Part shown: one piece after another, positions 32,983 to 37,603 of the stretch
Position numbering within the stretch: the first letter of the stretch is position 1
Layout: each line of letters begins with the position of its first letter
NCBI RefSeq assembly: GCF_964058985.1
Contig: NZ_OZ060379.1
Location: 248,001-312,000, forward strand
Origin: Buchnera aphidicola (Chaitophorus sp. 3695)
Lineage (GTDB): Bacteria; Pseudomonadota; Gammaproteobacteria; Enterobacterales; Enterobacteriaceae
Length of the DNA: 64,000 bases
Reading direction: 5' to 3'
The notes under the pieces: generated by a model
Told to the model about the DNA's origin: nothing
The model's input: only the letters and a program-made list of their open reading frames with translations
Databases searched by the model: none
Position numbers and translations under genes: made by a program

Positions 32983-33954
32983 TTATAAATCTTTCTTAAA
33001 AGTGAAATTTTTTAATTGATTAGAATATTTTAAAGATAATGGATTATGGTATGAATTATTTGAGAAAATATCTTGAAAGTTCCATATAAAATTAAAATTT
33101 ATGGAATTTAAATTTCTACTTTTAGAATTACTATAATAAGTAATTTTTTTCTCAAATTCAATTCTTGAATAAAAATTTTTATTAATTTTATATTGTAATC
33201 CAAAACTAATTAATGGAAAAATATTATCTTTAAATAAATAATGTGTATCAGAATTTCTTATTTTAAGAAGATTCTGATTAAGATTCAGAGAACAACCTAA
33301 ACGACTATATATATCTATAGAATTTAATACTGGAATAGAAATTTTTGTAGCAATTTCTAAATTTTTTTGTGGATACATAATATTTATTTTATCATGTATT
33401 TTTGAATTTCTATTGGCATTTGTTCTGCTAGATGTATATTCTGATTGTCCGTATGCTTTTTGAATATTATTATTTCTTATTGAAAGTAATTTACTATTGT
33501 GAGGATTGCTATTGCTAAAGTTAACATAAGATGTTTGACTCTCGTTAATTTGTTGCATTTGAATTTGATTTATTTTTTCTTCTTCTTCAGACTCTTTATC
33601 TTCTACTTTTTTTATAGAACTTAAATAATTTTTTTCAAGTCTAAAATTTTTTTCTTGTTTGAAAATATTATTAATTTTTTCTTGATTAATAAAAGGGTCG
33701 TTATAAGAAATCTCGAATCCAAAATATGAATTATTTTGATATCCTATTAAAAAACCATATAATGAATGTGACCAATAATTATTATATAAATTTTTAAAAT
33801 TAAATAAATCAGATTTTTTATTAATATAGTTAGGTTGTAATATATTAAATTTTGAACCAAAATAAAAATAATTATTATCTAACGTATTCGCATGAACATG
33901 AGTAGCTATACAAGTGTTTAATAAAAGAGAAACTACTATAGCTTTATTATTCAT
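32983..33954 (-). CDS. ompA: OmpA-like outer-membrane beta-barrel with an enlarged surface loop, no peptidoglycan domain
   Basis: Residues 1-22 look like a signal peptide (cleavage after HVHA). The mature start DNNYFYFGSKFN, then YGFLIGYQNNSYFGFEISYN (64-84), DIYSRLGCSL (214-223), PLISFGLQYKI (247-257), YSRIEFEKKIT (262-272) and INFNFIWNF (285-293) align in order with strands of the eight-stranded OmpA barrel. Between strands 3 and 4, about 105 residues (88-195) are inserted: a charged part with a run of Glu (119-126), then a Ser/Asn/Gln-rich part. This corresponds to extracellular loop 2 of OmpA. After the barrel only a 30-residue tail follows; the OmpA peptidoglycan-binding domain is absent. 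A distant homologue other than OmpA itself cannot be excluded. Confidence 0.8.
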   Translation of the reverse strand: MNNKAIVVSLLLNTCIATHVHANTLDNNYFYFGSKFNILQPNYINKKSDLFNFKNLYNNYWSHSLYGFLIGYQNNSYFGFEISYNDPFINQEKINNIFKQEKNFRLEKNYLSSIKKVEDKESEEEEKINQIQMQQINESQTSYVNFSNSNPHNSKLLSIRNNNIQKAYGQSEYTSSRTNANRNSKIHDKINIMYPQKNLEIATKISIPVLNSIDIYSRLGCSLNLNQNLLKIRNSDTHYLFKDNIFPLISFGLQYKINKNFYSRIEFEKKITYYSNSKSRNLNSINFNFIWNFQDIFSNNSYHNPLSLKYSNQLKNFTFKKDL

Positions 33955-35342
33955 ATCTTTTACTCCATTTTAAAAATTATAAATAAAATTTATTATTACT
34001 TATATTTATAATTTTTTAAATAAATTTAAAAACATTGTATCAATAAATCTTTAAAATTTGATAAATAAAATAAAACTATATTTTTAATATAACTAAACAT
34101 TTTAAACTATTTTTTAAAGAAATTTTTATTAATTAAAAAATTTTATATAAAATATTTTTTTATAAAAATATTTACTAAATTTTAAAATATATATGAAATT
34201 TTTTCAATAAAATATTTTAAAAAATATAATTTTATTAATTTTATTACATCCTTTAAATTTATTATTTATAATAATGTTATTATATCGTTTTATTTAAAAA
34301 AATATCAAATAAATAATTTTTATAAATTTAAATAAAACATTTAAAGAATATTCTAACATAAAAATAGAAAGTTAAAAAATTAGATAATATTAAAAAATTT
34401 TTATATTATAAATAAATCATTATTAAAATTTATTTTTAAAGATATTATAAATATTTTTATATAAAACAGTTAATAAAAAATTCTTAATATTTAAATTTTT
34501 TATAAATTTTTTATAAACTGAAATATAACATAGTATAATTTTATTACTATATAAATTTACTAATTTAATTTTTTGTATAAAAATACATAAATCTTAAAAT
34601 TTATATTTTAAATATAATTTAATACTAAAATAAAAATTTATATATGTAAACATATATAATATAAAATTATAAAATTATTTTTATTATAAATAAAAACAAC
34701 AAAAAATTTTAAAATGCTATTTAGATTAAAATTACAAAAAAAATATATATTTGAAAATAATTTATTTAAAATTAAAAATTTTTTATAAATATTAATCTAA
34801 AAAACAAATTTATAGATATTTTTTAAATAAATTCTATGAATTAAATTAATATTTTAAAAAATAAATTTTACAATCACTTTTTAAATTTTAAAAAAAAAAT
34901 GAAAAAATATAAATGTAATAAAAACATTATAATATAAAATTTTACATGGCACTAAAAATAATAAAATTTAATTAAATACTTATTTAAATGAATTCTCTTC
35001 TTGTAATTTCAAAAATTTATTTAATTAATCTTTATTTAATATTTTTATTTTAAAAAATTAAAAAATATAATACATATATTTATCCAAAAATATTTGTTAA
35101 TATAAATTATACTTTTTTAAAATTAAAAATAAAATATATTTAAATTAAATATATTTTCATTATAATAAATTATATTATTAAAAATTGAATTCTATAAAAA
35201 AATTCTAAAATTAAAAGGAATTTTTTATTTATAAATAAAATTAGAAATATAATATAGATAATTTAAATTTATATTATGTTAATATTTAATCAATAAAATC
35301 TCAAATAAATACATATAAAAATTTTTTATTTAGGAAAATCAC
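33955..35342. other. 1.4 kb gene-free A/T stretch, probable remains of the flagellar block
   Basis: I see no recognisable coding sequence, tRNA or GC-bearing hairpin in these 1388 bases, the longest gene-free stretch of the window. In E. coli, murJ-flgN-flgM and flgA-L lie upstream of rne; here only a FlgK-like frame survives next to rne, so this stretch is best read as decayed flagellar DNA. The last part must carry the promoter and ribosome site (TTTAGGAAAA) of the FlgK-like gene. Confidence 0.55.
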
Positions 35343-36272
35343 ATGTACGATATTAACAGTTTTATAATGAATAACGAAAAATTATTAAATACGCCTTCTA
35401 CAGATTACTTTAATGAAATGAAACAATTAAATGAAAAAAATTATTTAAATTATAACAAATATATTAAATATAAAATACATCAAACATTAAAAATTAAAGT
35501 AAATACAAATTCTTTTAATATATATGTAAATAATTATACTAAAAAAATTCAAGAAAAAAGAAAATTAGAAGCTCAAGCAGAAAAAGATAAAATTTTTTTA
35601 AATATTATTTCTAAAATTCAAAATGTTTTTTTAAGAAATCAAGATATTTTACTCAAAAAAAGTCCTTTTGAAAATAATATATTTTTAAATATAAAAAATT
35701 CAGAAAAAAATAAAGAAAAATTTATAAGTCAATTACATGAATTACTTGATGAATATAACTTTTTTTATGATAACTTTGTAAGTATAGAAAAGTATATTAG
35801 TAATAAAATTAAAAATAATATTAACAAAATAAATAATATTATTGATCAAATTTATTTATTAAATAAAAAAATTCAAAAAGAAAAAATTGATAATAATTCA
35901 ATATATATAAATATTTTCAATACAGAGAGAGAAAATTTAATAAATCAATTAAACAAAATTATAGCTGTTCATAAAAATATTATAGATTCTGAAGATAGTG
36001 TTAGAATTTTTGATAATATATTATTAGTTTCAGATAAATTAAAATATCATATACAAAATAATCATGATCCAATTAATAAAATTGAAAATAGATTATGTTT
36101 TGTAAATAAATCATCTAATACTATTGACATACCTTTAAGTCAAATTATTGGAGAAGGAAAAATGTCTGGTTTATCCGAAGCTTATTTAAATGATTTAGTA
36201 CCTGCAATGAATCAAATTAGACAAATTATTTTTGATTTATCTCAATATTTAGATATTAATAATAAAAATTAA
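35343..36272 (+). CDS. FlgK-like protein remnant (middle part of the hook-filament junction protein HAP1)
   Basis: The 309-residue product is Lys/Asn/Ile-rich and has no signal peptide. Its middle and end align with FlgK: KINNIIDQIYLLNKKI (162-177) with the coiled INNYAKQIASLNDQI segment, ERENLINQLNKIIAV (195-209) with QRDQLVSELNQIVGV, and IDIPLSQIIGEGKMSGLSEA (261-280) with the IEIPEKLLNTGSLGG segment. Residues 85-160 fit the preceding helical region. The first 60 residues barely resemble the D0 region, and everything after the first third of the FlgK outer domain, including the C-terminal D0/D1 helices, is missing (FlgK is about 547 residues). Position supports this: it is next to rne, where E. 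coli flgKL end. A good AGGAAA site precedes the ATG. The function is unknown. Confidence 0.65.
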   Translation: MYDINSFIMNNEKLLNTPSTDYFNEMKQLNEKNYLNYNKYIKYKIHQTLKIKVNTNSFNIYVNNYTKKIQEKRKLEAQAEKDKIFLNIISKIQNVFLRNQDILLKKSPFENNIFLNIKNSEKNKEKFISQLHELLDEYNFFYDNFVSIEKYISNKIKNNINKINNIIDQIYLLNKKIQKEKIDNNSIYINIFNTERENLINQLNKIIAVHKNIIDSEDSVRIFDNILLVSDKLKYHIQNNHDPINKIENRLCFVNKSSNTIDIPLSQIIGEGKMSGLSEAYLNDLVPAMNQIRQIIFDLSQYLDINNKN

Positions 36273-36415: not shown

Positions 36416-37603
36416 TTATTCAAAAAAATTAAATTTTTTTCTGGATAGTTCTAATAATCCAAATTTTGAAATTTTACCTAATTGAATTCTAGATGGTTCG
36501 TTTTGAATAACGTTTGCAAAAGTATTTTCAATTTTTTTAATATTTTTAATATTTGACATATTAATAAAATCTATAACAATTATACCTTCTATATTTCGTA
36601 ATCTTAATTGATTAACAATTTCAAATATAGATTCAAAATTTATATTAAAAGCTGTTTCTTCTATGTTATAACTTTTATTATAATGAGAAGAATTTACATC
36701 TATTACAGTTAAAGCTTCTGTTATATCAATAGTTAAAGATCCTCCAGATAATAATTTTATATTTTTTTCAAAAATAGAGTTAATTTGTAGATTTATTTTA
36801 TAAAAATAAAAAATAGATGTAGATTCTTTAAAATATTTAATTTTTTGAATAAATATATTTTTTTTAAAATAAATTATAAATTTTATAAAATCATAAAATA
36901 AAATTTTATTATCGATAATTATTTCATCAATATTGTTAGTTAAATAATATCTTAAAATAGAAATAAAAATATAATGATTTTTATAAATTATACAACTGAT
37001 GTTTTTTTTGTGTATAAAATTTTTATTTTGAATTAAATTTAATTGTTTAAGTTGATAATTAAAATCAAATTTAAGATCTTGAAAAGATATTTTATAACTT
37101 GATGTACGTAGAATAATTCCTACATAATTTGGAATTTTTAATAAATATAAAAAATTTTTCAAACGATTTCTTTCAATTCCTTTAATTTTTTTAGAAATTT
37201 TTTTAATATTTGGTTTATTGAAAATTAAAATTAAATATATTCCAAAAAATTTTATAAATGTAGTTAATATAGATCTTTTATATTTACTTTTTTTTTTTAT
37301 AATTTGCACTAAAAATTTTTTTCTTAAAATTTTATTTAAAACATTTTTATTTAATACATCTATATTTTTTAAATTTAAAATTTTTTTATATATTTTATTA
37401 AAAGGTAAAAATCCGTTTTTTTTATTTCCATAATCTATAAAAAAAGCTTCTAAACTTAGACTAATATATTTTACTTTAGCTATATATATATTATTTATTT
37501 TTTTTATATACATATTTTTTATATATAAACTATGTAATTTTTCTTTATAAATAACTGCTACTTTGACATTATTTTTAGTAACATGAACTAAAATTTTTTT
37601 CAT
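36416..37603 (-). CDS. rne: Ribonuclease E, catalytic core only
   Basis: RNase E is the main endonuclease for mRNA decay and rRNA/tRNA processing. Only 395 residues remain, against 1061 in E. coli. The S1 domain (about 36-120, with SLEAFFIDYGNKKNGFLPF), the 5'-sensor/RNase H-like part and the DNase I-like active site are present; the metal ligands are Asp302 and Asp345 with Asn304 in TVIDVNSS and IVIDFINM. The protein ends at FGLLELSRKKFNFFE, about ten residues before the CPRC zinc-link, so the zinc-link, small domain and degradosome scaffold are all missing. No CxxC codons follow downstream in any frame. Divergent from rluC, as in E. coli. Confidence 0.9.
   Translation of the reverse strand: MKKILVHVTKNNVKVAVIYKEKLHSLYIKNMYIKKINNIYIAKVKYISLSLEAFFIDYGNKKNGFLPFNKIYKKILNLKNIDVLNKNVLNKILRKKFLVQIIKKKSKYKRSILTTFIKFFGIYLILIFNKPNIKKISKKIKGIERNRLKNFLYLLKIPNYVGIILRTSSYKISFQDLKFDFNYQLKQLNLIQNKNFIHKKNISCIIYKNHYIFISILRYYLTNNIDEIIIDNKILFYDFIKFIIYFKKNIFIQKIKYFKESTSIFYFYKINLQINSIFEKNIKLLSGGSLTIDITEALTVIDVNSSHYNKSYNIEETAFNINFESIFEIVNQLRLRNIEGIIVIDFINMSNIKNIKKIENTFANVIQNEPSRIQLGKISKFGLLELSRKKFNFFE

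Follow-up and report, generated by a model that had tools for sequence, protein, structure and literature searches.

The flagellar basal bodies of pea aphid Buchnera are described as a filament-less remnant, for which 26 flagellar genes are kept, including those of FlhA, FlhB and FliPQR, the rod and the rings (PMC8109811). FlgK, the hook-filament junction protein (HAP1), is among the retained hook proteins and has been measured there by proteomics (PMC8109811). Buchnera lineages often shed flgD, flgE, flgK and fliI, and genes of the gate and of the basal body are reported to be well maintained (PMC8109811). Flagellar sets of 28, 28, 23 and 15 proteins have been given for four Buchnera strains, in an account that covers the sets of C. 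cedri and C. tujafilina (PMC3246468), and Buchnera of Stegophylla is reported to have no flagellar proteins (PMC8109811). In this lineage-specific shrinkage the genomes studied here resemble the other reduced Buchnera. Why a non-swimming Buchnera keeps flagellar parts is an open question, to which protein export is one standing answer. The Chaitophorus clade offers a natural test, since most of the export gate has been dropped there while FliF, FliO, FliP and a core of FlgK have been kept under selection.

The window analysed here is a stretch of 64,000 nucleotides, bases 248001–312000 of the single-contig genome (472,039 bp, 20.3% G+C) of Buchnera of Chaitophorus sp. 3695, referred to as G000. 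It was compared with Buchnera of Chaitophorus viminalis (G005) and with a second sister Buchnera (G009). In window coordinates, the frame under study occupies 35343–36272 of the plus strand and has 309 codons with an ATG start in the ORF listing. A sequence-only reading had taken this frame for a fragment of FlgK, and profile searches bear out that identity. The 309-residue product matches Pfam FlgK_D1 with an E-value of 2.8e-17 and 63.5 bits against a curated cut-off of 28.6, the alignment spanning profile positions 35–212 of 233. The full-length FlgK equivalog of NCBIfam, TIGR02492, gives E 2.7e-10 and 40.2 bits, far under its cut-off of 170.75, and the solved FlgK sequences of PDB chains 2d4y and 9go6 match the product with E about 1e-4. 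When a profile made from the cores of the three sister genomes was compared with one of full-length FlgK, the alignment (Prob 96.6, E 6e-10) matched core residues 86–303 to residues 89–309 of the 547 in E. coli FlgK.

The same reading had described the frame as the middle of FlgK with both termini missing, of which the C-terminal loss stands and the N-terminal loss does not. Beyond about E. coli residue 310 nothing is left in the core, D2, the last D1 helices and the C-terminal D0 being absent. The N-terminal part of about 85 residues is present; the core starts approximately where FlgK starts and this part has about the right length (88 residues in E. coli), although it is so diverged that D0 is not recognisable in it and it lies outside the local profile alignment. 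The D0 segments, which in FlgK pair and polymerise, are recognised at neither end of the core. Since the start is near the FlgK start and the match ends around residue 310, the product represents the N-terminal half of FlgK and not only its middle: the diverged N-terminal residues followed by the D1 helical region with a D1b-like stretch. The D1a part of C. jejuni FlgK is a bundle of four helical segments, of which the third stops just before D2 and the fourth is supplied by the C-terminus (PMC5691160). Read against that arrangement, the core would stop near the D1/D2 border and would keep D1b and three of the four D1a segments; with the fourth segment of the bundle missing, its fold may be unstable. 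An AlphaFold model computed from a two-sequence alignment was unusable (mean pLDDT 39, pTM 0.28). Neither a hydrophobic N-terminus nor any other hydrophobic segment is seen in the core, the highest hydropathy over 19 residues being 0.66, so that the earlier suggestion of a secreted piece is not upheld. We read the gene as a C-terminally truncated FlgK that probably still works, within the explanation that is weighed further below.

Immediately upstream of the start lies a leader (35326–35342, plus strand) with an AGGA ribosome-binding site. Its 12 bases TTATTTAGGAAA at 35326–35337 are identical in G000, G005 and G009 while the AT-rich DNA around them is poorly conserved, in agreement with the good ribosome site that had been noted from the window. 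On the other side, the core is arranged tail to tail with rne (36416–37603, minus strand; 395 aa, Pfam RNase_E_G E 2.2e-68), a gene that converges on the core and shows where the flg block used to end. As rne also closes the flg block in E. coli, the position of the core matches, and the sequence-only reading had placed it correctly.

The same gene is present beside rne in G005 and G009, where it codes for 312 and 310 amino acids with 72% and 66% identity, respectively, and shares start, leader and place. Neither sister has a stop in the frame. The FlgK core is under purifying selection in these three related Buchnera. Pairwise maximum-likelihood dN/dS is 0.245, 0.201 and 0.052 for the three pairs, with likelihood-ratio statistics (LRT) against neutrality of 25.8, 37.1 and 53.3, and the per-branch omega of the whole gene is 0.22, 0.30 and 0.18 (LRT 4.1, 4.9 and 25.2). 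Loss of coding constraint, the mark of a pseudogene, is not what these values (omega 0.05–0.25, LRT 26–53) describe. The profile search and the dN/dS comparison with sister strains that had been proposed for this frame thus came out in favour of a kept FlgK frame. The alternative of a very recent wreck is rejected in that form, the truncated frame being common to three genomes with dS of at least 0.62 in each pair. Dating by dS was set aside, as dS is unreliable in this base composition and saturated between G000 and a more distant relative, G001.

Conservation is uneven along the core. Residues 211–270, the D1b-like stretch, are best conserved, with 0.73–0.77 of the columns identical in all three genomes, and residues 1–90 are the least conserved (0.30–0.40) apart from the last nine (0.33). 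For codons 1–90, of which two pairs were tested, neutrality is rejected for G000–G005 (LRT 9.2) and not for G000–G009 (omega 0.56, LRT 1.6); for the codons from 91 to the end taken alone, an omega of 1 is not rejected on the two shorter branches (LRT 1.6 and 2.2). As a control, the same alignments were read in the wrong frames with stops skipped, and omega was 0.8–2.2 in four of the five frames per pair. The fifth, minus-1 frame gave 0.43–0.60; neutrality is rejected there for two pairs (LRT 12.2 and 11.1) and not for the remaining one (3.4), and therefore part of the selection signal is not frame-specific. In a neutral simulation, one frame in 4000 stayed open at 0.1 substitutions per site and none in 4000 at 0.2; the three branches carry 0.68–2.2 neutral changes per codon, i.e. 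about 0.23 or more per site. The three genomes, one of which is a draft in six contigs, form a single clade, and a scan of genome contigs yielded one relative.

The flagellar gene content around this core is strongly reduced. Profile searches find FliP and FliF in all 11 genomes of the genus, whereas FlhA, FlhB, FliQ and FliR are each found in eight and are absent every time from the same three, G000, G005 and G009. FlgK_D1 is found in four of the 11, namely these three and G001, and Flg_bb_rod in none, with a model of 31 positions that may be insensitive. A set of 36 E. coli query proteins, which included rne and argS as controls and was without FliR, FliO, FliL and FliT, gave only flgK, fliF and fliP in G000 at E < 0.1, besides FliA and FliI matches on other frames that are presumably sigma factors and ATP synthase subunits. 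G009 and G005 gave the same outcome, the one exception being a weak match to FlhB in G005 (E 0.015). With these queries no flgA–J or flgL was found in G000, confirming the loss of the flg neighbours that had been read from the window, and FlgE and FlgL, the partners of hook-junction assembly, are among the genes not found. The same queries found no rod, hook, ring, switch, export ATPase or FlgN gene in the three genomes, nor any of flgB, C, F, G and E, which leaves FliF as the only basal-body part found. FliO is present in all three sisters in phmmer searches with queries derived from G001. In G000, fliF, fliO and fliP (Pfam E 1.5e-16, 2e-9 and 6e-60, respectively) are located outside the window at G000:C1:61701–64850. 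The search of the rest of the genome, as had been advised, thus turned up fliF, fliO and fliP, and neither the flg genes nor flhA.

Divergent flagellar genes were sought with phmmer at maximum sensitivity, using 16 frames of G001 as queries. Beyond fliF, fliO, fliP, flgK and the FliI matches, only weak matches were obtained, six of them with E < 0.01 among the best two per query, on frames of at most 137 codons: FliJ-like (0.0013) and FliG (0.008) in G000, the C-terminal part of FlhB (0.0018 and 0.0083) and FliJ-like (0.0074) in G005, and the N-terminal part of FlhB (0.0067) in G009. We take these as low-complexity chance matches and, on this search, reject hidden divergent flagellar genes. 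The export gate of the clade is reduced to FliP, and what is left is a four-gene flagellar remnant comprising the flgK core, fliF, fliO and fliP. Because the three genomes are one clade, the co-retention of these four genes counts as one event and not as three. The clade differs from pea aphid Buchnera in that most of the gate, the rod and the rings are gone and the FlgK core stays. We found no description of a set made up of FliF, FliO, FliP and a FlgK core in the open-access text consulted.

All four survivors rank low in identity among reciprocal best pairs of frames of at least 60 aa, antisense frames included. Across 439 G000–G005 pairs, FliF is at percentile 0.0 (the least conserved), the FlgK core at 1.6, FliP at 2.5 and FliO at 3.9; across 441 G000–G009 pairs the values are 0.2, 1.1, 1.4 and 8.2, respectively. 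Of the 319 G000–G005 pairs with at least 150 codons, 120 were sampled at random, and their omega has a median of 0.072 and a 99th percentile of 0.223. The highest value of all, 0.245, belongs to the FlgK core, which was itself in the sample; values of 0.203, 0.195 and 0.052 were fitted apart from the sample for FliP, FliF and FliO, respectively. Constraint is seen on all three branches for FliF (LRT 8.0, 4.0 and 22.1) and for FliP (omega 0.20–0.27, LRT 6.3–15.6), and for FliO it is significant on one of the three (LRT 1.7, 19.9 and 2.2). The ratio of FliP dN to rne dN is 0.97–1.20 in the clade (three pairs) as compared to 0.56–0.81 in four gate-bearing relatives (six pairs). The methionine loop of FliP, whose first and last positions are reported to be 99% and whose central position 87% conserved in about 2500 homologues (PMC8239009), reads MMI in G000 and ITM in G009; G005 and all eight other genomes of the genus have MMM. 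FliP seems to have been freed from export duty, yet it is not neutral. FliF extends only a little beyond its second membrane segment and is without the cytoplasmic tail of E. coli and G001.

The place beside rne has a varied history in the relatives. In G001 it holds a FlgK core of 300 aa, whose end is at most a few codons away from the end point in the clade and which is followed by flgD. The gene beside rne is flgD in G004 and G007, flgI in G008 and flgH in G002 and G003; in G006 the adjacent gene reads like pyrC, and G010 gave no match to rne. The FlgD assignment comes from a profile comparison in which the three proteins were combined (Prob 96.7); taken singly, each of them is below the Pfam cut-off or without a match. 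In three small genomes outside the genus, which we take as Buchnera, the FlgK frames have 554–557 codons, and in the alignment one of these frames has a shortened N-terminus. A tree of rne and rluC from 12 genomes groups the three sisters in one clade (100/100), joined with G002, G003, G007 and G008 (85/95); G001 and G004 are further out in unresolved order, and G001 is not the sister of the clade. Both one early truncation of FlgK followed by losses and two truncations at one domain border fit this pattern. In G001, where the other export genes are kept, flhB is broken into two frames (G001:C1:366043–367097), which could be a sequencing error or early decay of the gate.

A hook protein that has been cut to half and is still selected probably serves some purpose other than flagellum construction. 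The core differs from FlgK as a hook-filament junction protein not only in lacking the part that in E. coli runs from about residue 310 to residue 547, but also in its surroundings, as no hook, filament or complete gate is found in G000. FlgK is normally passed by FlgN to FlhA and then exported (PMC8527033). Since FlgN, FlhA, FlhB, FliQ and FliR were not found and no hydrophobic segment is seen, the core is probably cytoplasmic. The reading that we prefer, and to which we would assign as much chance of being right as of being wrong, is a non-exported FlgK core kept within the four-gene flagellar remnant. The core would stay in the cell because four components of its normal exit gate, made of FlhA, FlhB and FliPQR, are gone, and it could act as a small protein-binding module through its best-conserved, D1b surface. 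FliP has been reported to form hexameric rings with the help of FliO, and the MS ring is formed by FliF alone (PMC5542437). The likeliest partner of the core would be a membrane remnant of the FliF ring and FliP rings with FliO as helper, and a contact between FlgK and FliF or FliP is putative. FliG aids MS-ring formation in Salmonella (PMC5542437), and a convincing FliG was found neither with the E. coli nor with the G001-derived queries in the clade. The remnant complex would no longer secrete protein; its job might be that of an envelope scaffold, a surface mark or a small-molecule pore. If the four genes are expressed, part at least of the symbiotic value of the remnant would be independent of export.

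In FliF, FliO and FliP the clade resembles the FliO/FliP ring and the FliF MS ring of Salmonella, as all three are ring-forming or ring-assembling proteins of the inner membrane (PMC5542437, PMC8239009). In contrast to Salmonella, FliQ, FliR, FlhA and FlhB are absent, FliF is tail-less and the methionine loop departs from MMM in two of the three genomes. A pore formed by FliP on its own has been reported (PMC8239009). It is conceivable, and in our judgement very doubtful, that the four survivors are a non-secretory membrane device turned metabolite channel, in which FliP rings built by FliO sit inside a tail-less FliF ring and the FlgK core serves as cytoplasmic partner or lid. With the FliR plug gone and the gasket changed in two genomes, such a FliP pore might let small molecules through between the host and a symbiont that is poor in transporters.

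The reading of a core kept in a remnant has to be weighed against a slow decay, in which the four genes would be the last flagellar genes, either useful until shortly before the split of the three genomes or weakly useful now and bound to go. Low identity ranks of all four, the raised dN of FliP relative to rne, its altered loop in two of three genomes and the differing flg leftovers (flgH, flgI or flgD) at the same place in relatives all point this way, and the low ranks together with the highest omega among 120 genes are as compatible with a fading use as with a new one. Two observations speak against it: the frame has stayed open on each branch over an amount of neutral change at which no simulated frame did, and the whole-gene omega is below 1 on every branch. 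We regard decay as rather unlikely, while still giving it appreciable weight. A somewhat smaller share of our belief goes to an independent role, that is, recruitment of the core by a non-flagellar partner, its survival beside fliF, fliO and fliP being coincidental. D1b, which faces FlgE in a modelled hook-FlgK junction (PMC5691160), is conserved here though FlgE is not found; furthermore, the truncated FlgK of G001 coexists with export genes, so that truncation would precede the loss of the gate if it had a single origin. However, no candidate partner was found for such a recruitment.

It might also be argued that a hidden or borrowed apparatus still exports the core, which would then cap a hook-like structure, given that FliP and FliF are present. 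This canonical use is largely refuted by the absence of FlhA, FlhB, FliQ and FliR from all three genomes in profile searches, by the lack of any rod, hook, ring or FlgN gene among the matches of the E. coli queries and by the loss of the C-terminal half of FlgK, and we consider it highly improbable. The link with the export machine that the sequence-only reading had thought conceivable falls on the same four missing gate proteins and is rejected in this clade, FliF, FliO and FliP being the only parts of the gate and basal body found. Finally, low-complexity AT-rich coding is all that favours a chance open frame or an annotation artefact; profile similarity, conservation of the frame in the sisters, the wrong-frame controls and the neutral simulation refute this explanation, whose probability we put close to nil.

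Upstream of the core, a stretch of 1.4 kb (33955–35342) is free of ORFs of at least 60 aa and holds no recognisable flagellar remnant, the best match having E 0.03; an empty stretch of similar length is found at the same place in G009. It is bounded on its far side by an OmpA-like membrane protein gene (32983–33954, minus strand), a neighbour identified from the ORF listing and a profile match and mentioned for context only. The barrel family matches this protein best over residues 185–268, which are preceded by a long polar stretch, and in G001 a longer protein of similar start is present at the place of this gene.
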